A stretch of DNA of 64,000 nt. Source: Alkalimarinus alittae (lineage in GTDB: Bacteria > Pseudomonadota > Gammaproteobacteria > Pseudomonadales > Oleiphilaceae). How positions within the stretch are numbered: position 1 is the stretch's first letter; each line of letters opens with the position of its first letter. The stretch covers positions 1,836,001-1,900,000 of the forward strand of contig NZ_CP100390.1 in the NCBI RefSeq assembly GCF_026016465.1. The letters are read 5' to 3'. The position numbers were made by a program, and so were the translations under genes. Of this stretch, positions 37,741-52,569 are shown in pieces. The notes under the pieces are model-generated. The model did not search any database. It had not been told where the DNA came from and worked only from the letters and a program-made list of their open reading frames with translations.

Positions 37741-38976
37741 TTAAGATTTATTTAGTTTGCTGCATTTACCGGTTGAAATACAGTTCTTTCCTTTACGTTT
37801 TGATTCGTAAAGTGCTTCGTCAGCGCATTTTAGCAGATCTTTTATAGAATATTCCTGATCTGGGATAAGAGAGCAACAACCAATGCTAATAGTGAGCCTA
37901 TTTTGATGGGTGGCATAGGGGTGCTGAATGTTTAGTTCAAATACAGCGTTTAATATAATGGAAGCAAGCGCCGTTGCGTCCGCTTCGTTAGCATAAGGCA
38001 AGGTAATTACAAATTCCTCCCCTCCATACCGAGCGACCATATCATTAGGGCGTTGAACATGTTGCTTTAATGTTTGTGCAATACTTTTGAGGGATTCATC
38101 ACCCGCTACATGACCTTGGGTGTCGTTATAACGTTTAAAGTCATCAACATCGATCATTAATACAGAAATAGGTGTCTTTTGCCTGACTGCGTTCAACCAC
38201 TCGCGTTCTATGTGCTTATTAAAATAGCGACGATTAAAAAGGCCTGTTAATGCATCTAATGTGGACAGTTTTCTTAACTTCTCTTGTGTTTTTATAAGTT
38301 CGTCGTGCTCGTAGTTAAGGAGCTGGGAACGAACAAAGCTTTTTCGGATCTCAAACTCCATTCTTCCGTTAACAATTAGGCTTAAAATGGTAACGAAAGA
38401 ATAGATAAAAAATATTTCTGTCATTTGCTCGGTCGTGATGACCGTCAATTGGGACATTGCAAATAGCTGAGAAAGCAACATAACAAGCGCAAAAGGGAGC
38501 GCATAAGAAAAGCCTACTCGAATAATATTACATATAAATATAATGGTAATAATTGAACCAAATTGATAATGAAACTGGCCGCTGTCGGCAGCAAGTATGC
38601 CCACTAATATCAATGATAGGTGGATAATAAATGCGCCTAGACAGAGGAGTATCTGGTGCCATCGATAAGATTTGTCGAGATAAATCCCTCCCACAACTGC
38701 GAGTATTATACCTGCACCAATAGAGCGAATAATGATCGCTTGATCTATCAGCGATGGAATGACAATTAAATCTGATGCGATAAATAAAATAAGCCCTAGT
38801 ACCCCTAAGCTAGGGTATAGACGATTCTCAAATTGATAGCTTGAAAGCATGTATTGAGTATATTTGGCTTCCATCTGAGTATTAAAACGATAATAAAACC
38901 GTTTTTTTTGCAAGTATGCTTGTGCATCTCGAAGCTGATCAATCAATGTGTTGTGCTCTTTATTGTCAAAAGGCAA
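37741..38976 (-). CDS. Membrane-bound GGDEF diguanylate cyclase
   Basis: A 411-residue inner-membrane protein predicted to synthesise cyclic di-GMP. Residues 45-205 contain about six hydrophobic segments (for example LGVLGLILFIASDLIVI and ILLCLGAFIIHLSLILVGI). A short coiled coil, then the GGDEF domain with STLDALTGLFNRRYFNK, VDDFKRYND and the active-site variant RYGGEEF. The product-inhibition site RPND lies five residues before GGEEF. The start is TTG 38976, with AGGAA six bases upstream. Divergent from the MshEN-type c-di-GMP-binding candidate at 39247, which may read its signal. Confidence 0.9.
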   Translation of the reverse strand: MPFDNKEHNTLIDQLRDAQAYLQKKRFYYRFNTQMEAKYTQYMLSSYQFENRLYPSLGVLGLILFIASDLIVIPSLIDQAIIIRSIGAGIILAVVGGIYLDKSYRWHQILLCLGAFIIHLSLILVGILAADSGQFHYQFGSIITIIFICNIIRVGFSYALPFALVMLLSQLFAMSQLTVITTEQMTEIFFIYSFVTILSLIVNGRMEFEIRKSFVRSQLLNYEHDELIKTQEKLRKLSTLDALTGLFNRRYFNKHIEREWLNAVRQKTPISVLMIDVDDFKRYNDTQGHVAGDESLKSIAQTLKQHVQRPNDMVARYGGEEFVITLPYANEADATALASIILNAVFELNIQHPYATHQNRLTISIGCCSLIPDQEYSIKDLLKCADEALYESKRKGKNCISTGKCSKLNKS

Positions 38977-39246
38977 AGATATTTCCTGTCTCTAGCGGTG
39001 AAATTAGAGTGTGCATGAATGGCTTGTTCTTTAATATAGTTTAGCTTCGAAAAATAGAATCGCTACTAACTACCTGATTTAACGCTTCATTTAATTCGGT
39101 CGACATCTGGCAGTATCAAAATGTTAAGTGTACTTACATTTGTTAACCAATCGATAAGATTATACTGTGTACAAAACATACAATACATACCATTATTCTC
39201 TAGGGATCACTACTAACTCAAAACACAAATAATAGAGGTCGGGGAT

Positions 39247-39981
39247 ATGAAATCAACAAAAACAAAGCAACTAGACAAGTCCCGTCTTGGTCGATTACTG
39301 GTTAATCGCGGATATATCACAGAACAACAGCTTGATAGTGCGTTAGTACAGCAGCGTACTACAGGTCAAAAACTAGGTGAAGTGCTTGTTTGTCAGGGGC
39401 TAATCTCACAAAGAGACCTAGAGCGGACGTTAAAGCACCAGAAAAGATATCGTTATACCGCTGCTTTTGTGGCGATGGTTGTCGCGCCTTTACAGCCAGC
39501 GGTTGCATTTGCTGCAACCACACAGACAAGCAGTGCAAGCAGTGATGCGGTAGCCGCAGAACAAGTTAACGCATTTAAATCTAAGTCTGGGCTAAGGGCA
39601 CTAGATGATGAGTCTTTAGCGGGTGTATCAGCGCAGGGTATCACAGAAGATATTCAAGGCTTGATGCAGATGGTTAATAACGAACAAAAACCAGACTCGG
39701 TAAAAGTATTAAAGAATTTGACTAACGTTTTTATGCCCGTTACCAATATGCTAGCGTGGGATTCAACAGTAGAAGGTGTTGTTTACGATAGCAGTAAGCC
39801 CGTATTTGAGATGTTGGATACGGGTAAAATGAAGCTCGCACTCCCTACCAGTATCGACAGAATTAGCTTGGAAAATATTCGTGTAGCGGGTTCTGGGCCA
39901 ACAAGCCCGACGTTTGGTAGTGTGTATATGAGCGATATTAGCTTCTCACCTGATTCTAGTGTGACTATCACCGTAAGATAA
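39247..39981 (+). CDS. MshEN-domain protein fused to an exported DUF6160-like segment
   Basis: A 244-residue protein with an unusual architecture. Residues 13-36 and 42-65 form two consecutive 24-residue motifs of the form [R/K]LGxxLxxxG...LxxxLxxQ, joined by a five-residue spacer. This is the c-di-GMP-binding MshEN signature known from MshE/GspE-type ATPases. No ATPase follows. Instead come a short basic stretch (KRYRY), a hydrophobic segment TAAFVAMVVAPLQPAVAFA (71-89) like a signal or membrane segment, and a segment LDDESLAGVSAQGI (119-132) resembling exported DUF6160-type proteins. The rest is unrecognised. Gene function unknown; the two halves are seen directly, the c-di-GMP role is inferred. 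Confidence 0.8.
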   Translation: MKSTKTKQLDKSRLGRLLVNRGYITEQQLDSALVQQRTTGQKLGEVLVCQGLISQRDLERTLKHQKRYRYTAAFVAMVVAPLQPAVAFAATTQTSSASSDAVAAEQVNAFKSKSGLRALDDESLAGVSAQGITEDIQGLMQMVNNEQKPDSVKVLKNLTNVFMPVTNMLAWDSTVEGVVYDSSKPVFEMLDTGKMKLALPTSIDRISLENIRVAGSGPTSPTFGSVYMSDISFSPDSSVTITVR

Positions 39982-40020: not shown

Positions 40021-40052
40021 AAAAGCCTGGTCAGTTAACTGATCAGGCTTTT
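40021..40052. terminator. Bidirectional terminator between the MshEN gene and flgN
   Basis: AAAAGCCTG (40021-40029) pairs with CAGGCTTTT (40044-40052), with an inner TCAGT/ACTGA stem. It lies between convergent genes and overlaps the flgN stop codon. Confidence 0.8.
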
Positions 40053-40516
40053 GCTATTGAGTTAAGACCACCGATAGTGCTTTCCTTACCTGAAGAACCG
40101 TAGAGGTTAGGCTTATTGCTCTGGCCTCTTACAATATCCATCAATTTATTAACACGCTTGAGAGAGTGGCTGACCACCTTTCCATTGATGGTGTTTTGAT
40201 CTTGGCAGAACCTTAATCCTACATTTACTTTTCGCCAAAGTGATTGAAGTGATTCATCAGGTATTTCAGCGATGACTTTTTCAAACTCGCCTTTTTTGAT
40301 TTGGTAGCCTGCATCAACGAATAATAATGCTTTTGCTTTAGCTCGGTGTTCGATTGATTTTATGCAGGTGGATTTATCGATGGCAAGTTCTTGTATTGCG
40401 GCGTTAGAGCGCTCCTTGAGGGCGGTGCGCTCTTTATTAAGTATTTCGCTAAGTCTGGTAAGGTCTTGTATATCTTCTTGTAGCAGAGTTTTGAGTCGAT
40501 CAATTGAAAGTGGCAT
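40043..40516 (-). CDS. flgN: Flagellar export chaperone FlgN
   Basis: Cytoplasmic chaperone for the hook-filament junction proteins FlgK and FlgL. It is 157 residues long and almost wholly helical, with the typical N-terminal pattern LLQEDIQDLTRLSEILNKERTAL. Sequence is weakly conserved in this family, so the call rests on this pattern, the length and its position directly downstream of flgM (11 bases). The flgM-flgN pair is the standard sigma-28-dependent arrangement. The C-terminal tail is low in complexity (GSSGKESTIGG). Confidence 0.88.
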   Translation of the reverse strand: MPLSIDRLKTLLQEDIQDLTRLSEILNKERTALKERSNAAIQELAIDKSTCIKSIEHRAKAKALLFVDAGYQIKKGEFEKVIAEIPDESLQSLWRKVNVGLRFCQDQNTINGKVVSHSLKRVNKLMDIVRGQSNKPNLYGSSGKESTIGGLNSIAKA

Positions 40517-40527
40517 AACAATTACTC

Positions 40528-40851
40528 TTATAGAATGTGTTTCTCCATATTAAGCATTTTTTGAGCCACATTTTCAGCAGAGACGTTATAAGTGCCATCT
40601 TCGAGTGCTGCACGAATTTTTGCAACCTTATCGGAGTCAACTTGCGGTAATTCTTTCAAGCTAGCTTCAATTTGTTGGAAGTTTTTGGCTTTCCCACTAA
40701 AACTTACATTCTCGCCGCGCTTTTCTATTGGCGCTTCGTGCTTTTCAGTCGTAGAGCTGTCAATTTTTTGTCGGGCTTGTTGGGCCTCGACTGTTCGGCT
40801 TCTTGAGCCACCCGGTTGGTTCGGGTTAATACTGTTAATATCAATTACCAT
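40528..40851 (-). CDS. flgM: Anti-sigma-28 factor FlgM
   Basis: Binds and inhibits sigma-28 (FliA) until it is exported through the completed hook-basal body. At 107 residues it has the usual disordered N-terminal half (INPNQPGGSRSRTVEAQQAR) and the conserved C-terminal sigma-binding helices VDSDKVAKIRAALEDGTYNV, then AQKMLNME. AAGG lies upstream of the ATG. A strong sigma-28 promoter stands about 35 bases before the start, which gives the expected feedback loop. Confidence 0.94.
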   Translation of the reverse strand: MVIDINSINPNQPGGSRSRTVEAQQARQKIDSSTTEKHEAPIEKRGENVSFSGKAKNFQQIEASLKELPQVDSDKVAKIRAALEDGTYNVSAENVAQKMLNMEKHIL

Positions 40852-40886
40852 GATCGTAAACCTTCAATTTATAGACTCTGCTTAAC

Positions 40887-40913
40887 TTATCGACCTAATT
40901 TTAAAAAACTTTA
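40887..40913 (-). promoter_or_regulatory. Sigma-28 (FliA) promoter of flgMN
   Basis: On the minus strand TAAAGTTT (40913-40906), an 11-base spacer, then GTCGATAA (40894-40887). This differs in one base from the known consensus TAAAGTTT-N11-GCCGATAA. It is correctly placed just upstream of flgM, which is a known FliA target in related bacteria. Confidence 0.88.
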
Positions 40914-41008
40914 ACACTAAAAGGTATTTTATTTTATGTGTTGTTTAAATAAACGAGGTTATGTTGATATTTTTAGCGTATACCCCGCTTTAAATGTTAA
41001 TGAGTAGA

Positions 41009-41707
41009 TTACATAGGGACGGTTACTTCCCCTTTCGAAACAACGGTAGCGCGAATGATCCGATTAGATTTTTTGTTTTTAACCGATATCTGTTGCCCTA
41101 GTTTTCCGTCGCTTAGTGCTTCGCCCATCATTTGAACAGATATGGTGTCAGAGAGTGCGCTAATAACCACTGAATCCCCGCGTTCAATCACTTTAGGGGG
41201 TAACAGTAACCCAGGATAAAAAACGTCCCCTGCCTGTATTGAACGCCGTAGGGTCATGCCTGCGATATTATGTTTATTTATAAAATAACCTTGTCGTGAT
41301 TGGTTGACTTGTAACTCCGCGCGTTTTAAATCTGAGTCTTTTACTCTTTGACCTCTACGCAATGTTTGGCTGGCCACCCATACCTCTTTATAGACATTAA
41401 TGTTGGCTGCTACAAAGATTGACCAACGTTTTTTATCATGGCAAGTCACTTTTATTGTGTTTTTACTTCGCTCTAAAGGGTCGCCCTGAAACTCAAAAGT
41501 AAGGGGGATTTCGCATTTTGTTAAGTTCAAACGCGGGTCGATATTGCCGATTTTGAAGTCAGAGCGGAACCCTTTGTCCGCCGCTAAAGTTTCAGTAACG
41601 GTATTTAAATATTGCTGAGTCTCTTGGGATACCCACTGGCTAAATGACGATGCAGACACCGGTATTGCTAATAAAAGTAATACTAGAGTTAAAATTGGCC
41701 TGCGCAC
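41009..41707 (-). CDS. flgA: Flagellar basal body P-ring formation chaperone FlgA
   Basis: Periplasmic chaperone for P-ring assembly. The preferred start GTG 41707 gives MRRPILTLVLLLLAIPVSAS, a clear Sec signal peptide, and a mature protein of about 210 residues. The C-terminal SAF domain has VWVASQTLRRGQRVKDSDL and AGMTLRRSIQAGDVF, followed by GQQISVKN and VSKGEVTV, typical of FlgA. A GTG 72 bases upstream (41779) is also in frame and would add 24 residues. flgA lies upstream of flgM but 157 bases apart, and a separate sigma-54-type promoter is present. Confidence 0.92.
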   Translation of the reverse strand: MRRPILTLVLLLLAIPVSASSFSQWVSQETQQYLNTVTETLAADKGFRSDFKIGNIDPRLNLTKCEIPLTFEFQGDPLERSKNTIKVTCHDKKRWSIFVAANINVYKEVWVASQTLRRGQRVKDSDLKRAELQVNQSRQGYFINKHNIAGMTLRRSIQAGDVFYPGLLLPPKVIERGDSVVISALSDTISVQMMGEALSDGKLGQQISVKNKKSNRIIRATVVSKGEVTVPM

Positions 41708-41815
41708 TTTAAAAAAATGGCCTATGCTAACGATATGTAAGACGTATTTTTCAGGGCTGTGTTTATTAAAACAAGGCACATTAACACCATTTGTTGTAAC
41801 GAGTGGAATTGCTAG

Positions 41816-43796: not shown

Positions 43797-44447
43797 TTAA
43801 GTCAGAAAAGGGTTTAACATTCGTCCAAAGAACCCAGTCATTCTAAGCGGTGCATCGAGTACCGCAAAACATATGCAATCACTCGTCTCGGCAGCTTTGG
43901 GTTGGTGAACGGTATGAGTGTCTGCCAGAATAAAGTCACCCTGATGATACTCTCCTGCACTATCAGAGAAACTCCCATCCATCACTAACGTAAACTCATT
44001 GCCTTTGTGAGTATGCACGGGTAGTTCTTTGCCTGCTGAAATCTTATAGAGCTTTGCGGTGTATTGACCGTCAGAAAACGGTAACTTATATTCTTTTATA
44101 CTACGAGTCATACCTGACCATTCAAGCTGATCAAAATAACCAGGCACAAACCGACTTAACGGTTTAGGTATACGTGGGTCAATAACCTGTGTTTTTTGTC
44201 CAGTTTTTGTCGCTTCGTGCTCAGGTTCATCTAATTGCGATAGCAGTTGTGTTAATACATTGCTGCTAACTTCAACAGGGGGAGATTCTTGCATTATCTC
44301 ACCGCCTAACTGCTCATAGACTCTTATACGCTGACAACACTCAGGGCACTTTTCAAGGTGGCATGCGACTAAAATGCCCAGTGCATTGGACATTTGGCCA
44401 GCCGAAAATTGCATTAAAAGTTCGTCAGAAGGATGATAATTAGCCAT
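43797..44447 (-). CDS. chrR: ChrR-family anti-sigma factor (zinc ASD plus cupin)
   Basis: Predicted inhibitor of the ECF sigma factor encoded upstream. The N-terminal anti-sigma domain has zinc ligands H5 and H30-x3-C34-x2-C37 (ACHLEKCPECC), the classical ZAS pattern. The C-terminal half is a cupin with metal ligands in PVHTHKGNEFTLV and HTVHQPKA. In Rhodobacter sphaeroides ChrR releases RpoE on exposure to singlet oxygen; this architecture (216 residues) is the same. It overlaps the sigma gene by 34 bases, so the two are translationally coupled. Confidence 0.93.
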   Translation of the reverse strand: MANYHPSDELLMQFSAGQMSNALGILVACHLEKCPECCQRIRVYEQLGGEIMQESPPVEVSSNVLTQLLSQLDEPEHEATKTGQKTQVIDPRIPKPLSRFVPGYFDQLEWSGMTRSIKEYKLPFSDGQYTAKLYKISAGKELPVHTHKGNEFTLVMDGSFSDSAGEYHQGDFILADTHTVHQPKAAETSDCICFAVLDAPLRMTGFFGRMLNPFLT

Positions 44448-45043
44448 GTCATTTGTTCTTTCGCTAAGGTGTCTAACTTTTTCATTGCCAATCGCAACCG
44501 TGACTTTATGGTTCCGAGCGGTAAATCAAGTTCATTGGCAATCTCGCTGTGAGGTTTGCCTTCAAAATAGACTTTATAAACAATTTGCCGCTGGGTTTCA
44601 GGCAACCCGTGTAAGAGTGTACGAACGACGTTCACATTTAGATCACTTTCTACTTTATTTTCTAAATGTTCTTTTTCGGTAAAAGCCTCAGGCCATAGAT
44701 CATCGGAGCTTATAAGGTCTGGACGTTCTTTACGCACAAGGTCAATTCGCTTATTACGAACAATCGTATAGAGCCAAGTGATCGCAGAGGCCGCGCTAGG
44801 GTTAAACGTATGCGCTTTACGCCAAACAGTGAGTAACGCCTCTTGAACAACTTCTTCAGAATCCGTCGGGCTTGCCCCGCAGCGGATAGCATAAGCCTTT
44901 AGCTGTGGCGAAACTTGTTCAAATAACTGTATAAAGGCATTTCGGTCTTTATCATGCGCAATTTTAAGGACTAATGCGTTGAGTGACTGGGAAATGTCAG
45001 TTTGGGCTTGCTTCAAAAAGTCGTTCTCATTCTGAGGTTCCAA
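44414..45043 (-). CDS. ECF sigma factor, ECF11/RpoE type
   Basis: RNA polymerase sigma factor of 209 residues. Region 2 includes FIQLFEQVSPQLKAYAIRCG, SEEVVQEALLTVWRKA and WLYTIVRNKRIDLVRKE. Region 4 has LPETQRQIVYKVYFEGKPHSEIANELDLPLGTIKSRLRLAMKKL. Pairing with a ChrR-type cupin anti-sigma factor places it in the ECF11 group that answers singlet oxygen and organic peroxides. A matching promoter is seen in front of the divergent photolyase array. I saw no equivalent motif in front of the sigma gene itself. Confidence 0.93.
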   Translation of the reverse strand: MEPQNENDFLKQAQTDISQSLNALVLKIAHDKDRNAFIQLFEQVSPQLKAYAIRCGASPTDSEEVVQEALLTVWRKAHTFNPSAASAITWLYTIVRNKRIDLVRKERPDLISSDDLWPEAFTEKEHLENKVESDLNVNVVRTLLHGLPETQRQIVYKVYFEGKPHSEIANELDLPLGTIKSRLRLAMKKLDTLAKEQMTWLIIILLTNF

Positions 45044-45239
45044 CGATTTTCAAGATTAAGATCATCTCAAAAATGTAAGAAAAGCAATGATTAGTATTTA
45101 GCCTTAATTGATTGATGTTCCAAGTCAAAATATAAAGTATTGGTAACGGTTGGTAAAGGCAAACTCTCGGTAATACTCATAATTAAGCACATATTTAATA
45201 AGGATATTGTATAACATCATAAATAAAGTAACTTAAAGG

Positions 45240-45269
45240 TGATCCGATTCTAACCTAGGACCGTAAGAA
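45240..45269 (+). promoter_or_regulatory. ECF11/RpoE-type promoter before the photolyase operon
   Basis: TGATCC (45240-45245), an 18-base spacer, then TAAGAA (45264-45269). This fits the promoter type I recall for the singlet-oxygen sigma factor RpoE of Rhodobacter. It faces the phrB operon and is 50 bases from its ATG. Confidence 0.85.
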
Positions 45270-45303
45270 CTATCATAAACATAATGTTGGGCAGGAAGAA
45301 CAA

Positions 45304-45327
45304 ATGAGTGTGGTAAAAAATGCATAA
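45304..45327 (+). CDS. Possible seven-codon leader peptide overlapping the phrB start
   Basis: ATG 45304 has a good ribosome site (GGAAGAAC just upstream) and encodes MSVVKNA before TAA at 45325-45327. The phrB ATG at 45320 lies inside it in another frame and has no good ribosome site of its own. The mini-ORF may serve to bring ribosomes to phrB by coupling. It is too short to be judged as a gene by composition. Confidence 0.35.
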   Translation: MSVVKNA

Positions 45328-46768
45328 TATTGTTTGGTTTAGAAGTGATCTGAGAGTTTATGATAATCCGGCGTTAAGTGCAGCGCTACAAAACGGAAGT
45401 GTAGTAGCTATTTACCTGCTATCTCAGAAACAATGGGATCAACACTCTGTAGCACCGGCAAAACGATCACTTATCGTCGGACAACTTCTTTCATTGGCAG
45501 AACAGCTCAGTTTGCTTAATGTGCCTTTAAAAGTGATCGCTTGTAGTGACTTTTCTCAATATGCTGATGTTATCACTGAGCAAGCCTGCCTACTTGGCTC
45601 TGGACGGGTGTATTACAACGCTGAATATGAGCTTAATGAAAAACACTGTGCCGAAGCTGTCAAAGAAAAACTAGAATCGGTCAATGTCATGACTCAAGAG
45701 TTTCATGATAGCTGCATGATAATGCCTGGTCAGATCAGAACAAAGCAAGGTGAATGCTACAAAGTCTTTTCTGCTTTTAAACGCGCCTTCATAGAGCAGT
45801 ATGCTCTTTACTCACGACCCATTCTGTATAAACCCAAAGCGCAGGCTTTGATTGATGTAGAGATGGACCTAACGGCGTTAAATGAAGTCGTTACTGAGTC
45901 TAAGTGGTCATCACTATGGCCGGCAGGTGAAGATGAAGCCCATGATCGACTGAATAGGTTTGTTGAAGGTCACATTAAAGAATATGACATCAAAAGAGAT
46001 ATCCCTTCTGTAGACGGTACAAGCCAGTTATCACCTTACTTAGCGGTGGGTGCATTAAGTACAACGCAATGCATGCAAGCCGCACTCAGCTTAACAGAAG
46101 GTCGTTTTGATAGTGGGAGAAACGGCGTTTTGGTGTGGATAAACGAATTAATCTGGCGAGAATTCTACCGGCATTTGATGGATGAATACCCACGATTAAG
46201 CAAACACAAGCCGTTCAAAATAGATACTGACAGGCTTCCTTGGAAGCATGATCAGGCACTGTTTAATTCATGGGTTGAAGGGCGTACCGGCTTTCCGATT
46301 GTTGATGCGGCTATGCGACAGTTGGCTGAGACTGGCTGGATGCACAATCGATTAAGAATGATCACTGCGATGTTTTTAACCAAGCATTTATTCATTGATT
46401 GGCGTTGGGGTGAGCAGTATTTTATGGAGAATTTAGTAGACGGTGATTTAGCGTCTAATAATGGTGGGTGGCAGTGGAGCGCCTCGACAGGGGTTGATGC
46501 CGTACCGTATTTTAGAATATTTAACCCGACACGACAGTCGGAGCGTTTTGACCCTAACGGAGATTTTATTCGTCGCTACGTCCCTGAACTCGCAGGGCTA
46601 GATAGTAAGTCAATTCATCAGCCCAGTCTTCAGCAAGCTAGAAGCGCTGGTTATGCTGTGCCGATAGTCGATCATGCGACAGCGGTTGCGCAGACAAAGT
46701 TGTGGTTCAAGCAATTGTCTGAGCCAACCAGAGACTTGTTTGCTGATGAAGAGGTTCATCTAGCATGA
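45320..46768 (+). CDS. phrB: Deoxyribodipyrimidine photolyase (CPD class I)
   Basis: Repairs cyclobutane pyrimidine dimers using blue light. The N-terminal antenna domain begins NIVWFRSDLRVYDNPAL. The C-terminal FAD domain has WINELIWREFYRHL, GRTGFPIVDAAMRQL, WMHNRLRM and the signature ASNNGGWQWSASTGVDA with PYFRIFNP. The 482 residues fit the family. It is the first full gene behind the ECF11-type promoter and overlaps the following desaturase by four bases. Photolyase genes are known members of the RpoE/ChrR regulon of Rhodobacter. Confidence 0.96.
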   Translation: MHNIVWFRSDLRVYDNPALSAALQNGSVVAIYLLSQKQWDQHSVAPAKRSLIVGQLLSLAEQLSLLNVPLKVIACSDFSQYADVITEQACLLGSGRVYYNAEYELNEKHCAEAVKEKLESVNVMTQEFHDSCMIMPGQIRTKQGECYKVFSAFKRAFIEQYALYSRPILYKPKAQALIDVEMDLTALNEVVTESKWSSLWPAGEDEAHDRLNRFVEGHIKEYDIKRDIPSVDGTSQLSPYLAVGALSTTQCMQAALSLTEGRFDSGRNGVLVWINELIWREFYRHLMDEYPRLSKHKPFKIDTDRLPWKHDQALFNSWVEGRTGFPIVDAAMRQLAETGWMHNRLRMITAMFLTKHLFIDWRWGEQYFMENLVDGDLASNNGGWQWSASTGVDAVPYFRIFNPTRQSERFDPNGDFIRRYVPELAGLDSKSIHQPSLQQARSAGYAVPIVDHATAVAQTKLWFKQLSEPTRDLFADEEVHLA

Positions 46769-47751
46769 GTATTCAACAGTCTAGCAAAAATCAACTGCTT
46801 AGAAATATCGTTAGATGGATCGATGCAGAAGCAGGCTCAACTAACTCAGACCCTGTTGAGCCACATAAAATAAACTGGTTTCGATGCATACCTTTTTTGG
46901 CTGTTCATGTCGCTTGTTTGGGGGTAATTTGGACGGGGTGGAGCGCAACCGCTTTGTGGTTTTGTTTAGGCTTTTTTTGGTTAAGAATGTTTGCAGTGAC
47001 GGCATTCTATCATCGATTATTTTCTCATCGAAGCTATAAAACCAATCGAACATGGCAGTTTGTGTTTGCTGTTCTGGGTAATTCATCTTGCCAGAGAGGG
47101 CCGTTATGGTGGGCTTCTCATCACCGTAAGCATCATAAATACTCTGATCAAGAAAAAGACCTACACTCGCCTGTTGCCCATGGTTTTTGGTTTAGTCATG
47201 TGGGGTGGTTTATGTCTGAGGCGGGGTTTAAAACGGACTACTCAGTGATTAAAGATCTTGCCCGATACCCAGAGCTTCGCTTTTTAAATCGCTTTGATAT
47301 TTTAGTGCCGGCTATTTTTGCTGTATTAATTTACTTTTTAGGTGAGTTTATCGCCCATTATTGGCCCGAGTCGGGTACGAATGGTTGGCAGATGCTGGTA
47401 TGGGTGTTTTTCGTCTCTACAACTCTTTTATTTCATGCCACATTCACCATCAATTCTTTAGGCCATGTGTGGGGTTCTCGTCGGTTTGAAACAAAAGACC
47501 GTAGCCGCAACAACCCATGGTTAACACTGCTCACTTTAGGTGAGGGGTGGCACAACAATCATCATCGTTTTGCGGTCTCTGCAAGGCAGGGTTTCTACTG
47601 GTGGGAAGTTGATATTTCATACTACATTCTAAAATTTTTGTCTCTTTTAGGTATTGTGAGTGATCTTAATCCAGTGCCTGCTCGTATATTAGAAGAAGGT
47701 CAGCGAAATAGAGTGAAGGCGGGTGATAACAGTACTGAGGAGAAAGGGTAA
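46765..47751 (+). CDS. Membrane acyl-CoA/acyl-lipid desaturase (delta-9 type)
   Basis: Di-iron integral membrane desaturase that inserts a double bond into acyl chains. The three histidine boxes are intact: HRLFSH, HHRKHH and HNNHH. Several membrane segments are visible (FLAVHVACLGVIWTGW, ILVPAIFAVLIYFL). The length is 328 residues. It lies in the photolyase operon and overlaps its neighbours (ATGA with phrB, TAATG with the NTF2 gene). Here it may supply unsaturated acyl chains for the downstream methyltransferase, which needs a double bond; that is inference. Confidence 0.9.
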   Translation: MSIQQSSKNQLLRNIVRWIDAEAGSTNSDPVEPHKINWFRCIPFLAVHVACLGVIWTGWSATALWFCLGFFWLRMFAVTAFYHRLFSHRSYKTNRTWQFVFAVLGNSSCQRGPLWWASHHRKHHKYSDQEKDLHSPVAHGFWFSHVGWFMSEAGFKTDYSVIKDLARYPELRFLNRFDILVPAIFAVLIYFLGEFIAHYWPESGTNGWQMLVWVFFVSTTLLFHATFTINSLGHVWGSRRFETKDRSRNNPWLTLLTLGEGWHNNHHRFAVSARQGFYWWEVDISYYILKFLSLLGIVSDLNPVPARILEEGQRNRVKAGDNSTEEKG

Positions 47752-48200
47752 TGGCAAGTTCAGCTAAATCACCAGAGCAGGTTGTAGAGCAATTTAAAAC
47801 ACTGTACCAAACATTGAATGCGAGTAACTGTAAAAGCGACATTGTCGATGGCGTATACCGGCAAGATGTTCTATTCCAAGATAGCTTTCATCGTATCGAA
47901 GGACTTGATGAAATGAAAGAGTACTTTAATGCACTGTACTTAAATCTAAAAAGCAGCGAGTTTGTGTTTCATGATCAGTGGATATCAAACGACAGCGCCA
48001 TGCTCACCTGGACCATGACTTACGCCCATGACAGGCTAAATAAAGGTCGCGATATTAGCATGGATGGTTCAACTGAAATACGATTTGATGACAAGGTGTT
48101 TTATCACAAAGATTACTTTGATGGCGGCAGCTTGTTATATGAGCATGTGCCTGTTTTGGGAACCGTTATAAAGCAGCTTAAAAAATACATGGCTAAGTAG
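47751..48200 (+). CDS. NTF2-like (SnoaL-type) protein
   Basis: A 149-residue single-domain protein of the NTF2-like superfamily. Typical features are the N-terminal helix EQVVEQFKTLYQTL, then VDGVYRQDVLFQDSFHRIEGLDEMKEYFNALY, and the sheet region ending EIRFDDKVFYHKDYFDGG. This family includes isomerases, hydrolases and binding proteins, so its reaction cannot be stated. It overlaps the desaturase stop by one base. Its recurrence beside SDR and CFA-like genes in ECF11 clusters suggests a role in lipid modification. Confidence 0.85.
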   Translation: MASSAKSPEQVVEQFKTLYQTLNASNCKSDIVDGVYRQDVLFQDSFHRIEGLDEMKEYFNALYLNLKSSEFVFHDQWISNDSAMLTWTMTYAHDRLNKGRDISMDGSTEIRFDDKVFYHKDYFDGGSLLYEHVPVLGTVIKQLKKYMAK

Positions 48201-48227
48201 AAAGTAAAAAGTGGCAAGTAGAAAGTA
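48195..48227. repeat. Two direct copies of a 12-base repeat after the NTF2 gene
   Basis: AAGTAGAAAGTA occurs at 48195-48206 (overlapping the stop codon) and at 48216-48227, a period of 21 bases. It is A/G-rich on this strand and of unknown role. Confidence 0.6.
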
Positions 48228-48238
48228 GTTGCATCGAG

Positions 48239-48269
48239 TGATACAGGTTAATAAACGTTGTCATAAGAC
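48239..48269 (+). promoter_or_regulatory. Weak second ECF11-type promoter candidate before the SDR gene
   Basis: TGATAC (48239-48244), a 19-base spacer, then TAAGAC (48264-48269). It has one mismatch in each box relative to the site at 45240 and a spacer one base longer. It would start a shorter transcript at the SDR gene. Confidence 0.35.
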
Positions 48270-48283
48270 CAAAGGCCGATTGT

Positions 48284-49135
48284 ATGAATACTACAGAAAA
48301 AAAACGCGCAATATGGATAGTCGGTGCCTCGACAGGCATTGGTGAAGCGTTATTTCGAGAGCTGAACAACGGAAGTAACACCCTTTTTATTAGTGCTCGA
48401 GATAAAGCAAAACTAGAATCAATAGCGCAAAAATCCAATGCAACGGTTGAAGTAATTGACTTGGATATTACTGATGAATTTGCGGTTACTGCAGCGGCAG
48501 AAAACATTCGACAGCGTGTAGGGCGGCTTGATCAGGTGATCGTAAATGCCGGAACCTGTGAATATATTGACTCAGATGAAATTGATATGGCTGCAGTAAA
48601 ACGCGTGATGGATACTAATTTTTGGGGTGCATTAAATGTGATAAATGCAGCGCTACCATTACTTCGGTCAGCCCGCGCAATGAACCCCAGTTGTGCACCA
48701 CAGCTTGCCATTATGTCTAGTAGCGTAACCTATCAGGCGTTGCCAAGAGCCGGTGCTTATGGCGCATCAAAAGCCGCATTAAGGTATTTTGTAGAATCCC
48801 TGAAGCTAGACTTACAGCATGAAGGTATTGATATAAGAGTGATTAGCCCAGGGTTTGTTAAAACGCCATTGACTGATCAAAATGATTTTGACATGCCCTT
48901 TATTGTCGAAGTAGATGATGCCGCCGAAAGAATTGTAAAGGGGCTCAAATCCAATCGTTTTGACATTCACTTTCCCTCTCGCTTTACACGAATTTTAAAA
49001 ACTATTTCGTTATTGCCAGATAGCCTTCGATTCAAACTGGTGGGAAAGGCATCACGTCACTCAGAAACCTCAAACTATGTAAACCATCAGCCACATACCG
49101 ATAACAATCAACAGACAGAATTAACAAAGCCCTAG
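48284..49135 (+). CDS. Short-chain dehydrogenase/reductase
   Basis: NAD(P)-dependent oxidoreductase of 283 residues. The cofactor-binding loop is WIVGASTGIGEALF, followed by IVNAG, the catalytic Ser in IMSSSVTYQALP, and the YGASKAALRYF active-site Tyr/Lys. PGFVKTPLT follows the active site. An 84-base gap separates it from the NTF2 gene; it begins the second part of the array. An SDR gene occurs in the corresponding RpoE/ChrR lipid-modification cluster of Rhodobacter, as I recall. The substrate is unknown, perhaps a modified acyl chain. Confidence 0.92.
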   Translation: MNTTEKKRAIWIVGASTGIGEALFRELNNGSNTLFISARDKAKLESIAQKSNATVEVIDLDITDEFAVTAAAENIRQRVGRLDQVIVNAGTCEYIDSDEIDMAAVKRVMDTNFWGALNVINAALPLLRSARAMNPSCAPQLAIMSSSVTYQALPRAGAYGASKAALRYFVESLKLDLQHEGIDIRVISPGFVKTPLTDQNDFDMPFIVEVDDAAERIVKGLKSNRFDIHFPSRFTRILKTISLLPDSLRFKLVGKASRHSETSNYVNHQPHTDNNQQTELTKP

Positions 49136-49143
49136 GAATTATT

Positions 49144-50409
49144 ATGAGTCAGAAACAAAACATTGCCATCATCGGCTCAGGCATAGCGGGCTTAACAGCA
49201 GGCTATCTATTAAGTAAAAAGCATAATGTGACCTTGTTTGAAGCCAACGACTATCTGGGCGGCCATACGCACACTCGTAACGTTGAGTTAGGGGGCAAGA
49301 CATACCCAGTGAATACTGGCTTCATCGTTTTTAATGATTGGACTTATCCGAACTTTATAGAACTAATGGCACAGCTAAAAGTACAGAGTGAAGTATCGGA
49401 TATGAGTTTCAGTGTGCGGTGTGAAAATACCGGATTAGAGTATAACGGTACCAGCTTAAATAGCTTGTTCGCACAGCGACTTAATATGGCAAAACCATCG
49501 TTTATTAGGATGATCTTCGACATTATTCGTTTTAATAAGCAAACAGTAGACGCGTTGAAAAACGAAACGGTTACTGATGATCAAACGCTAGGTGAGTTTG
49601 TAAAAGAACATGGCTATTCAGAAGCGTTTGTTAATTATTATATTGTACCGATGGGCGCAGCCATTTGGTCAGCATCCGTTGATGTGATGATGGAATTTCC
49701 ACTCAGGTTCTTTTTAAGGTTCTTCAACAATCACGGCATGTTGAGCGTTGACGATAGACCTCAATGGCGTGTAATCAGTGGTGGCTCGAGATCTTATATA
49801 GAGCCTATTACTCGCCCTTACAAAGATAATATTAAACTTAATACTGCGATTGTTTCTGTTGCGCGTGATGATAAGGGTGTTGAGTTAACAGACGACGCGG
49901 GTAAAAAATATCAGTTTGACCAAGTTGTATTCGGTTGCCACAGTGATCAGGCGTTAAGAATGCTTGAACAGCCAACGGATAAAGAGAGTGAGATACTGGG
50001 GCAATTACCGTATCAAATGAATCAAGTCGTGCTGCATACTGATGAACGACTAATGCCGAAGAAAAAGCTAGCCTGGGCTGCATGGAATTACCATATTCCT
50101 CAAAGGGCCAATGACTGTGCGATGGTCACGTACAATATGAATATTTTACAAAACTTTGACGATGCGCCAGAAACACTTCTAGTGACCCTCAATCGATCTC
50201 ATGAGATCGATCCATCAAAAATTATCGATAGTTATCAATATAGTCACCCTGTGTTCACACTTGATGGTGTAAAAGCACAGCAACGACACTCAGAAATAAG
50301 TGGACATAATCGAACGCATTATTGTGGCGCGTATTGGTTTAATGGTTTTCATGAAGACGGTGTTAATAGTGGGTTGAGAGTTGCAGAAGCATTTGGTCTT
50401 TCATTATGA
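49144..50409 (+). CDS. FAD-dependent amine-oxidase-like oxidoreductase
   Basis: A 421-residue flavoprotein of the amine oxidase/desaturase superfamily. The FAD fold is IAIIGSGIAGLTAGYLL, followed by GGHTHTRNV and the C-terminal segment with HYCGAYWFNGFHEDGVNSG. Proteins of this type sit next to CFA-synthase-like genes and DUF1365 in many bacteria. In Rhodobacter a homologous gene of the RpoE regulon is tied to furan fatty acid formation. It may oxidise a methylated acyl chain. It starts eight bases after the SDR gene and overlaps the next gene by four bases. Confidence 0.9.
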   Translation: MSQKQNIAIIGSGIAGLTAGYLLSKKHNVTLFEANDYLGGHTHTRNVELGGKTYPVNTGFIVFNDWTYPNFIELMAQLKVQSEVSDMSFSVRCENTGLEYNGTSLNSLFAQRLNMAKPSFIRMIFDIIRFNKQTVDALKNETVTDDQTLGEFVKEHGYSEAFVNYYIVPMGAAIWSASVDVMMEFPLRFFLRFFNNHGMLSVDDRPQWRVISGGSRSYIEPITRPYKDNIKLNTAIVSVARDDKGVELTDDAGKKYQFDQVVFGCHSDQALRMLEQPTDKESEILGQLPYQMNQVVLHTDERLMPKKKLAWAAWNYHIPQRANDCAMVTYNMNILQNFDDAPETLLVTLNRSHEIDPSKIIDSYQYSHPVFTLDGVKAQQRHSEISGHNRTHYCGAYWFNGFHEDGVNSGLRVAEAFGLSL

Positions 50410-51260
50410 ATAAAAGCGTTACCAGTGAACGAATACTTCGTCAGAATATGCAGAGTGCCATTTACACAGGTAATATTCGTCACCGTCGCTTTGTGCCTAA
50501 TGCTCATTCATTTAATTACCCGCTATTTATGCTTTATATCGATCTAGATGAGCTGCCAGCACTTTTTTCAACCAAATGGTTTTGCTCTTTAGAGCGATTT
50601 AATCTGGTGAGCTTTAAGCGTAAAGACTACTTTTCACCAGAGCAGCCAGATCTCAAACAAGCCGTCATTAATCGTGTAAACGAAGACTTTAAATCACAAG
50701 GCCAAACAGCACCTGAAATAGCCCATGTAAGAATGTTAATGCATGCGCGCTACCTTAATATTGTTTTTAACCCTGTTGTTTTTTACTACTGCTTTGATGA
50801 TCAACAGAACCTTATTGCCATTCTTGCAGAGATAACCAATACACCTTGGGCAGAACGACACGATTATGTCTTGCCCGTTAATGAAGAGCGGGCTGATATG
50901 GGTTACCGGAGCGGTGGAGACAATAAACATATTTTCAGCTTTAGTAAAAAGTTTCATGTTTCGCCGTTTAACCCCATGAACATGGACTATCGTTGGGTGT
51001 TTGGCGTGCCTAAAGCGCATCTAGTCGTCCATATGGAAAACACCATGAAAGCCTTGTCGGGTAGCGGCAATGATGCGGTTGAAAAGCATTTTGATGCGAC
51101 GTTAAACCTCGAAAGAAAATCATTTGAAGACGATCTTTCAAAAACACTGATCCAATATCCTATTATTACCGTAAAAGTAATATTAGGTATTTATTGGCAG
51201 GCTTTTAGGCTCTGGGTTAAACGTAATCCGTTTTACGATCACCCAAAACATAGAGAGTAA
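50406..51260 (+). CDS. DUF1365 family protein
   Basis: A 284-residue protein of a family with no assigned reaction. Diagnostic stretches are IYTGNIRHRRFVPNAHSFNY, FMLYIDLDELP, NPVVFYYCFD, EITNTPWAERHDYVLP and KKFHVSPFNPM. The family is almost always found between an FAD amine-oxidase-like gene and a CFA-synthase-like gene, as it is here, so it probably takes part in the same lipid reaction. It overlaps the preceding gene (ATGA). An alternative start is MQSAIYTG, 14 codons inside. Confidence 0.9.
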   Translation: MNKSVTSERILRQNMQSAIYTGNIRHRRFVPNAHSFNYPLFMLYIDLDELPALFSTKWFCSLERFNLVSFKRKDYFSPEQPDLKQAVINRVNEDFKSQGQTAPEIAHVRMLMHARYLNIVFNPVVFYYCFDDQQNLIAILAEITNTPWAERHDYVLPVNEERADMGYRSGGDNKHIFSFSKKFHVSPFNPMNMDYRWVFGVPKAHLVVHMENTMKALSGSGNDAVEKHFDATLNLERKSFEDDLSKTLIQYPIITVKVILGIYWQAFRLWVKRNPFYDHPKHRE

Positions 51261-51306
51261 GTCATTAATATTCATTCGACAAAAGACTTAAGGTAAGGCG
51301 CTTTTT

Positions 51307-52569
51307 ATGAACAGTTCAGTAGCTGCATTGGAAAATAATAAAACTAGTCGGTTCAGTATGGCTCAGATAGCCAGAAAATTAGTTTGGCGACAGCTTGAGA
51401 AAATTCATACTGGCTCGATAGTGTTATATGAGCAGGGCGTTAGGCACTCTTTCGGAGAGGCTTTATTACCCGGCGCTGACCTCTACAGCGAAATGCATAT
51501 CCATGATATGAACTGTTATACCGACATTTTAACCGGTGGAAGTATTGGTGCATCTGAAGCCTATATGACCGGAGATTGGACTAGCCCAGACTTAACCAGT
51601 TTGGTCAGAGTCATGGCCAAGAATATGGATATTCTCGATCAAATTGAAGGTGGGTTTGCCTCAATCTCAAAACCCATGCTGAAGTGGTTTCATCGTCATA
51701 ATCAAAATACTGAGAAAGGCTCTAGACGAAACATTGCATCGCATTATGACCTAGGCAATGATTTCTTTAAGGTTTTTTTAGACCCTACTATGATGTACTC
51801 GTCTGGCATTTTTCCTTATGCCGGTGCAACCATGCAAGAAGCCTCCGAAAACAAACTTCGTAGAATTTGTGAAAAGCTGCAGCTCAGCGCAGATGATCAT
51901 GTGGTCGAAATAGGGACAGGTTGGGGAGGGTTTGCCATTTACGCAGCCAAACATTATGGGTGTAAAGTAACCACCACGACCATCTCAGAGCAACAATTTT
52001 TATTAGCCAAAGAGCGTGTTAAAGAAGCAGGTTTAGATGACAAAATAACCTTGCTGATGGAAGATTATCGTAAGCTTGAAGGCACCTACGACAAATTGGT
52101 ATCTATCGAGATGATAGAAGCGGTTGGTTGGCAGTTCTATGACACGTTTTTTGAAAAATGCGCTTCACTATTAAAACCAAACGGTTCTATGTTGATTCAA
52201 GCAATCACTATAGAAGACCAGCGTTATGAAAAAGCTAAGAACGATGTCGACTTTATACAAAAGTATATTTTCCCTGGCAGCTGCATCCCTTCAATTAATG
52301 CATTGAACACGGCTTCAATGAACTCAAGTGATATGAGACTTATTCATCTTGATGATTTTGCAGAGCATTACGCCACAACCCTTCGAACCTGGAGCAAAAC
52401 ACTGGCAGATAACCTCGATAAAGTTCGATCACAAGGTTACAGCGAAGACTTTATTAGAATGTGGTTCTTCTATCTTAGTTATTGCGAAGGCGGCTTTATG
52501 GAGCGCACTATTGGTGTATCTCACCTTGTATTTGCCAAGCCAGACTTTCGTAAAGAAATAATCCAGTAG
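51307..52569 (+). CDS. Cyclopropane-fatty-acyl-phospholipid-synthase-like SAM methyltransferase
   Basis: A 420-residue enzyme predicted to transfer a methyl group from SAM to the double bond of a phospholipid acyl chain. The SAM site is VVEIGTGWGGFAIYAAKHYG (near 199-218), with HYDLGNDFF and KYIFPGSCIPS typical of the CFA family. Compared with E. coli Cfa, the bicarbonate ligand Cys139 is replaced by Ser (S166 in MYSSGIF) and His266 by Gln (Q298 in LIQAI), while the Glu is kept (E271). It may therefore form methylated rather than cyclopropane chains. Its neighbours support lipid modification. Confidence 0.9.
   Translation: MNSSVAALENNKTSRFSMAQIARKLVWRQLEKIHTGSIVLYEQGVRHSFGEALLPGADLYSEMHIHDMNCYTDILTGGSIGASEAYMTGDWTSPDLTSLVRVMAKNMDILDQIEGGFASISKPMLKWFHRHNQNTEKGSRRNIASHYDLGNDFFKVFLDPTMMYSSGIFPYAGATMQEASENKLRRICEKLQLSADDHVVEIGTGWGGFAIYAAKHYGCKVTTTTISEQQFLLAKERVKEAGLDDKITLLMEDYRKLEGTYDKLVSIEMIEAVGWQFYDTFFEKCASLLKPNGSMLIQAITIEDQRYEKAKNDVDFIQKYIFPGSCIPSINALNTASMNSSDMRLIHLDDFAEHYATTLRTWSKTLADNLDKVRSQGYSEDFIRMWFFYLSYCEGGFMERTIGVSHLVFAKPDFRKEIIQ

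Follow-up and report, generated by a model that had tools for sequence, protein, structure and literature searches.

The gene at positions 39247..39981 (+) of the window, the 64,000-nucleotide stretch of Alkalimarinus alittae DNA analyzed in this study, encodes a protein of 244 amino acids in which an MshEN c-di-GMP-binding domain appears to form the front of a cleavable Sec-type export signal. The protein consists of MshEN, signal, linker, a DUF6160-like motif, and a beta domain. Its open reading frame starts with ATG, is preceded by a ribosome-binding-like AGAGG (39234..39238 [+], identified by eye), and is backed by a match to the NCBIfam profile NF053729 and by 72 named loci. We propose, with confidence and doubt in about equal measure, that the first 89 residues constitute a composite signal, the n-region of which is an MshEN c-di-GMP receptor that acts on the preprotein by gating or placing its export. 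Residues 13 to 65 would fold in the cytoplasm as the receptor. The last MshEN helix would run into a Sec-type signal made up of positively charged residues, about ten hydrophobic residues, a proline-containing c-region, and a signal peptidase I (SPase I) site that follows A89. Residues 90 to 244, which make up the mature part with the DUF6160-like motif and the beta domain, would reach the periplasm or the cell surface, and binding of c-di-GMP would decide whether, when, or where the preprotein is inserted and processed.

A sequence-only reading of this DNA had described two 24-residue motifs with a five-residue spacer, and they were recovered exactly at residues 13 to 36 (39283..39354 [+]) and 42 to 65 (39370..39441 [+]). 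The profile check supports MshEN at the same residues: NF053729, named c-di-GMP_motif, MshE-related, matches residues 13 to 65 with an E value of 3e-19 and 68.6 bits against a cut-off of 38. Searching the PDB with a profile of 45 orthologues returned PilF (6f8l, 2.5e-19) and MshE (5htl, 9.4e-12). Pfam gave no MshEN match on the window protein, and a whole-genome search with PF05157 did not list its locus; in the MshE-type ATPase of the same genome, the PF05157 match adjoins that of NF053729 without overlapping it. Three loci in the A. alittae genome lie above the NF053729 cut-off, namely, the gene described here, the MshE-type ATPase gene, and the gene for a 202-residue paralogue. Weak Pfam matches to DUF4388 (44 of 45 members at an E value of ≤0.1) and FumaraseC_C (33 of 45) fall inside MshEN where their stretches are shown. 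The absence of an ATPase, which had also been claimed from the letters, was confirmed. The protein ends at residue 244 without a Walker A part, and a GspE/PilB-type ATPase was ruled out.

Residues R13, L14, G15, L33, and Q36 of motif I are invariant in the 45 orthologues, and L29 is present in 43 of them. The same applies to L43, G44, L62, and Q65 of motif II, with L58 in 44 of 45. Motif II opens with R in 35 orthologues and with K in five, the window protein (K42) being one of the latter. When the c-di-GMP contact positions were taken from the accessible part of the description of the Vibrio cholerae structure (PMC5013675), the contact residues R/L/G...L...L..Q were present in both motifs, except for the K in place of R at the start of motif II. 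An AF2 model of the whole protein reached a mean pLDDT of 70.5 and a pTM of 0.36, with blocks of residues 11 to 70 at 82 to 92 and a weak linker. The predicted MshEN model matches structures such as 5htl/8pfa. The ten best Foldseek rows, and only these, were MshEN-type domains of PilF and MshE, mostly in c-di-GMP-bound form, with a probability of 1.00 and an rmsd of 0.7 to 2.0 Å over 53 to 56 columns; their E values of 0.02 to 0.11 reflect alignments that span just a quarter of the protein. Across five genomes of the genus, the protein is under purifying selection, with a dN/dS of about 0.07 for MshEN; over the stretch that begins with the signal and ends at the C terminus, dS is saturated and pN is 0.09 to 0.15. 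We infer that this domain is a c-di-GMP receptor and that the window protein itself binds c-di-GMP.

Downstream of Q65, the protein continues with K66, R67, Y68, and R69, about ten hydrophobic residues, and the pattern P81-L-Q83-P84-x-x-[SAT]-x-[AG]. The signal has a positively charged n-side at residues 60 to 70 (R60, K63, K66, R67, and R69; 39424..39456 [+]), which overlaps the end of MshEN motif II; both R60 and R69 occur in 45 of 45 orthologues. The n-side is followed by the hydrophobic h-region, residues 71 to 80 (39457..39486 [+]), and by the c-region, residues 81 to 89, with P81, Q83, and P84 (39487..39513 [+]). Position 87 (-3) is S in 22, A in 15, and T in eight orthologues; position 88 is F, L, or M; and position 89 (-1) is A in 44 and G in one. 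Small residues at -3 and -1 are the rule for SPase I. An n-h-c layout with such residues, together with two invariant prolines, is present in all 45 orthologues. Given the -3/-1 pattern, the segment after MshEN is more likely a cleavable Sec-type export signal, with SPase I cleavage predicted after A89, than a lasting anchor, although a stretch of such length and hydrophobicity could be a membrane anchor instead. AF2 draws residues 55 to 90 as one helix in which motif II and the hydrophobic segment are continuous. Of the arrangement read from the letters, in which MshEN, a hydrophobic segment, and an exported-type domain follow one another, the direct joining was upheld; in place of a lasting anchor, the marks of a cleavable signal were found.

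The 244-residue protein contains the hydrophobic segment as well as LDDESLAGVSAQGI. The exported-type domain and LDDESLAGVSAQGI can be retained from the previous description of a DUF6160-like exported part, but membership in DUF6160 cannot, being below threshold. DUF6160 (PF19657) matched four of 45 orthologues at an E value of ≤0.1 (best, 2.4e-4), one orthologue reached 21.8 bits against a cut-off of 27, and the window protein itself had no DUF6160 match in Pfam. It was consequently dropped as a family label for a sub-threshold match, and we refer to GLRALDDESLAGVSAQG at residues 115 to 131 (39589..39639 [+]) as a DUF6160-like motif. The exported beta domain, residues 150 to 244 (39694..39978 [+]), had a mean pLDDT of 81.6 when modeled alone with AF2. 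No known fold was assigned to it, as Foldseek gave no match at an E value of ≤0.001. VIA-align returned tied and weak matches with a best Z of 3.3 and an rmsd of 4.1 to 4.8, the pilus-like chain 9xfv among them; these weak fold matches are no evidence that the fold is new.

MshEN is not always attached to the beta domain. Searching the collected loci with a C-terminal-domain profile identified 127 distinct open reading frames, six of which, from four lineages, lack MshEN: one each in G014 (L084), G016 (L085), and Marinobacter vinifirmus (L148) and three in a single genus (L183 to L185). Judged by eye, L084, L148, and L183 to L185 start with ordinary-looking signal peptides, and the signal of L085 is less typical. 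L148 and L183 to L185 are in tandem with an MshEN-bearing copy. At L285 (6190-8373), from the same genome as L183 (G342), three beta-domain copies are arranged in tandem; the first carries MshEN, and the second and third carry ordinary-looking signal peptides without it, adding one tandem copy beyond the six open reading frames. L085 occupies the orthologous locus, with mnmC and flgN on either side, and no MshEN remnant was seen upstream of it in three frames. Since the beta domain is also found behind ordinary-looking signals, MshEN is a detachable front module on a protein that is otherwise exported.

The reverse situation, MshEN and signal in front of other exported parts, was found as well, and the search for this architecture in other genomes that had been suggested earlier showed that it recurs without an ATPase. 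In the same genome, the 202-residue paralogue (G000:C1:4135143-4135751; L068:7144-7752 [-]) combines MshEN (52 bits) with the lipobox LTGC, a Gly-rich linker, and an Fn3-like part. By eye, its neighbors are a DUF808-like and a ceramidase-like gene. Elsewhere, MshEN is joined to an SPase I site, five Ig-like stretches, and an Fn3-like part (L069, 663 residues); to a lipobox, Ig, and an Fn3-like part (L070 and L071); to a signal and DUF547 (L074); and to a signal, two CBM6 domains, and an Fn3-like end (L209). Several further carriers are short forms. One open reading frame (L207:2515-3225, genome G172) contains two tandem MshEN modules, then a hydrophobic segment, and ends in a short tail. The Ig, CBM6, and DUF547 parts exceed their Pfam cut-offs. 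The label Fn3-like rests on mutual similarity, with fn3 scoring below the Pfam cut-off of 25 in L069 (24.2 bits) and L205 (14.6 bits) and giving no match in L008 and L209. The lipobox protein L008 is 47 to 49% identical to L069, L070, and L071 over 86 to 89 residues and shows weak similarity to L205, L208, and L209; the Fn3-like domains behind SPase I sites and those behind lipoboxes are thus homologous. An alignment of 21 cassettes from different architectures spans 90 columns, the only difference in length being one residue in the spacer of two rows.

In total, 191 distinct MshEN frames were collected with a profile built from export and ATPase seeds and were split by a simple rule, namely, whether a long uncharged hydrophobic stretch comes next, as it does in 137. 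Walker A was found in none of these 137 frames versus 39 of the 54 others, and a lipobox was found in six of the 137. Inspected by eye, the 15 other frames without Walker A comprised ten of export type, which were either mis-indexed or had a stretch falling slightly short, and five of neither type. A tree was built from 53 columns, using 44 export rows chosen for variety; L259, L263, and L227 (the lipobox paralogue of A. alittae), all without Walker A, were dropped from its ATPase set. One branch (support 96/74) places 43 of the 44 export MshENs on one side and 43 ATPases with the export member L218 on the other, and this export-uniting branch is not among the starred ones of the tree. Both L218, which falls among the ATPases, and the ATPase L228, positioned beside the export branch, have long branches. 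By this split, the export class is mainly of one origin, and the exported part was swapped later.

Surveys at three taxonomic levels gave an estimate of its distribution. Within the order, 153 of 390 genomes matched at an E value of ≤1e-10, ATPases included, and 46 of 390, from 11 families, matched at ≤1.1e-17, all of them in frames of 98 to 321 residues (hand count). At the class level, 19 of 369 genomes matched at 1e-16; six were of export type (G000, G184, G614, G734, G659, and G546), and the remaining 13 had frames of ATPase length. At the phylum level, there were matches in 31 of 398 genomes at 1e-15, and the nine of export type all belonged to the order. It should be noted that distant export forms could be missed by a survey model built from close ones.

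Orthologues of the whole protein were identified by a scan of titled genomes, which yielded 72 loci, mostly from Marinobacter and also from Hahella, Oleiphilus, Halospina, and others. Matches extended over most of the length in 70 of them and were partial in two, L157 (an Ig-type protein) and L159 (a contig end). The nearest named relatives are from an uncultured member of the Oleiphilaceae (84% identical) and a Hahellaceae bacterium (79%). With 72 loci and the low dN/dS of MshEN, the architecture is not a product of chance.

The placement of the gene between a diguanylate cyclase and flagellar genes, as reported previously, was confirmed by Pfam, with GGDEF on one side and FlgN, FlgM, FlgA, CheW-REC (CheV-like), and CheR on the other. 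The genes flgN, flgM, and flgA occupy 40043..41779 (-). Among 73 loci (the 72 plus L087), some of whose stretches end before the neighbors, nearby genes included mnmC (71), a peptidyl-prolyl isomerase gene (67), flgN and flgM (63), and flgA, cheV, and cheR (64). A diguanylate cyclase gene was near in five, and its pairing with the MshEN protein was dropped on this account. A general flagellar link was dropped as well: among the loci compared, this neighborhood was seen only in the family of the window protein and was not seen in 16 loci of other families, of which three had a GGDEF-type match and two had a cheR- or cheV-type match some kilobases off. The divergent diguanylate cyclase of the window (37741..38976 [-]) has an intact GGEEF and, five residues before it, an RxxD (RPND); it is probably active and feedback-inhibited, judging by these two motifs. 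An inverted repeat between the MshEN protein gene and the convergent flgN (40021..40052) is, by eye, a possible two-way terminator; a pattern scan reported no terminator-like site. Upstream of the gene, FliA-like flagellar or sigma-54-like promoters, sought with consensus patterns, were found in none of 68 loci and not in the window. In one family (f38; L275, L276, L280 to L283, and L285), a trxB-like gene identified by eye is nearby in seven of seven loci, and at L275, secF- and secD-like genes follow on the opposite side from it.

By sequence comparison, the window protein is a homologue of Pseudomonas aeruginosa PA3740. The Pseudomonas-type members are matched by its C-terminal-domain profile and also have MshEN and the signal in common with it. 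In L190, L192, and L194, which are Pseudomonas-type by gene order, rplS and xerD-dsbC flank the member; two of the three loci also have a thioesterase gene, and two have a Na/H exchanger gene. This is the gene order of PA3737 to PA3742 in P. aeruginosa. The member is present in 22 of 25 genomes of the genus of L190. The neighborhoods differ, that of the window gene being flagellar and that of the Pseudomonas-type members being rplS/xerD. PA3740 is reported to bind c-di-GMP, and a review lists LKKALKKQTNLR as its binding stretch, mapped by peptide array (PMC8789108). This stretch corresponds to the motif II/signal junction of Pseudomonas-type members (LAKALKKQTNLR in L194), and the exact LKKALKKQTNLR string was not found among the collected MshEN open reading frames. 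Excerpts of another paper term PA3740 a swarming protein with uncharacterized domains (PMC5013675). The excerpted descriptions that we examined mention no export signal, in contrast to our reading of the window protein. According to the passages seen of PMC8335546, which labels PA3740 a PilZ protein, fleS or fleR mutants with raised c-di-GMP formed no less biofilm when PA3740 was deleted, a result that counts against a strong biofilm role. Extracts of two further papers report a lower level of the PA3740 transcript in a motABmotCD mutant (PMC3174259) and its upregulation in a stringent-response mutant (PMC7122816).

How MshEN could act on the exported part is constrained by the lipobox members. 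Since lipobox maturation would cut MshEN off the exported part, the receptor would have to act on the preprotein, and a mechanism shared by all members must operate before or during processing. We therefore favor gating of export over a lasting bitopic receptor, the latter over placing of export, and placing over a functional stub. The sequence-only reading had favored an inner-membrane receptor controlling a surface domain. Such an uncleaved bitopic receptor, in which MshEN would change the activity of the periplasmic domain through the transmembrane helix upon c-di-GMP binding, agrees with the continuous helix of the AF2 model, with a hydrophobic segment that could span a membrane, and with the conservation of the beta domain together with MshEN. 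However, the -3/-1 pattern in 45 of 45 orthologues and the two invariant prolines, the paralogues that have a lipobox where the SPase I site would be, and the beta domains without MshEN all argue against it. Consequently, the joining of MshEN to an exported domain stands, the lasting anchor has weaker support, and we consider the bitopic receptor unlikely.

Signal-peptide stubs are normally degraded, which speaks against a cleaved MshEN-membrane piece serving as a small receptor or sink while the exported part functions independently. The beta domain is also about equally conserved within the genus (pN of 0.12 versus 0.11). Although the strong purifying selection on MshEN and its persistence while exported parts vary would suit a functional stub, we regard this as improbable. 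Alternatively, c-di-GMP-bound MshEN might dock the preprotein at the pole, a type IV pilus, or the flagellar base, leaving the amount exported unchanged. Pilus and type II secretion system ATPases have MshEN as their regulatory domain (the sections consulted of PMC5013675), and most loci of the window protein's own family have the gene next to flgNMA-cheVR. On the other hand, no partner site was identified, and the flagellar surroundings are confined to that family in the comparison described above; we rate this possibility below the bitopic receptor and above the stub. Gating of the preprotein remains our preferred reading. Its extension to the order, with n-region receptors exerting post-translational c-di-GMP control over Sec insertion and SPase I/II processing of periplasmic or surface proteins of the Ig/Fn3-like, carbohydrate-binding, DUF547, and DUF6160-like kinds, is offered tentatively, as something we would sooner doubt than assert.

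Known targets of c-di-GMP include transcription, enzymes, pilus and secretion ATPases, and uncleaved membrane receptors. LapD, an uncleaved transmembrane c-di-GMP receptor, resembles the window protein in tying cytoplasmic sensing to a periplasmic outcome but differs in that the latter likely has a cleavable signal. Similarly, the MshE/PilB/GspE-type ATPases share the same 53-residue MshEN module, whereas the window protein has an export signal and an exported domain instead of the ATPase. As far as the parts consulted of two papers show, autotransporters and vertebrates have long functional signal peptides (PMC2805444, PMC2447879). The likeness lies in a long front part that does more than target; unlike in those cases, the front part here is a complete small-molecule receptor domain. 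Among the literature matches listed, which mostly lie outside subscription journals and were seen in part, no description of MshEN within an export signal was found. The occurrence of the same front piece on many exported proteins of relatives suggests that c-di-GMP may control which proteins leave the cell. If this is true, c-di-GMP control would have a new point of action, at which a receptor forming the front of a cleavable signal governs individual proteins while they are still in the cytoplasm. PA3740, which binds c-di-GMP and has uncharacterized domains, would gain a concrete role, and the cassette would offer a module for c-di-GMP-controlled export.

Elsewhere in the window, positions 43797-52569 contain genes for an ECF sigma factor and a ChrR-type cupin, both recognized by Pfam. 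The adjoining genes are, by eye, photolyase-, desaturase-, FAD-oxidase-, and cyclopropane-synthase-like, and the region looks like an ordinary singlet-oxygen response cluster.
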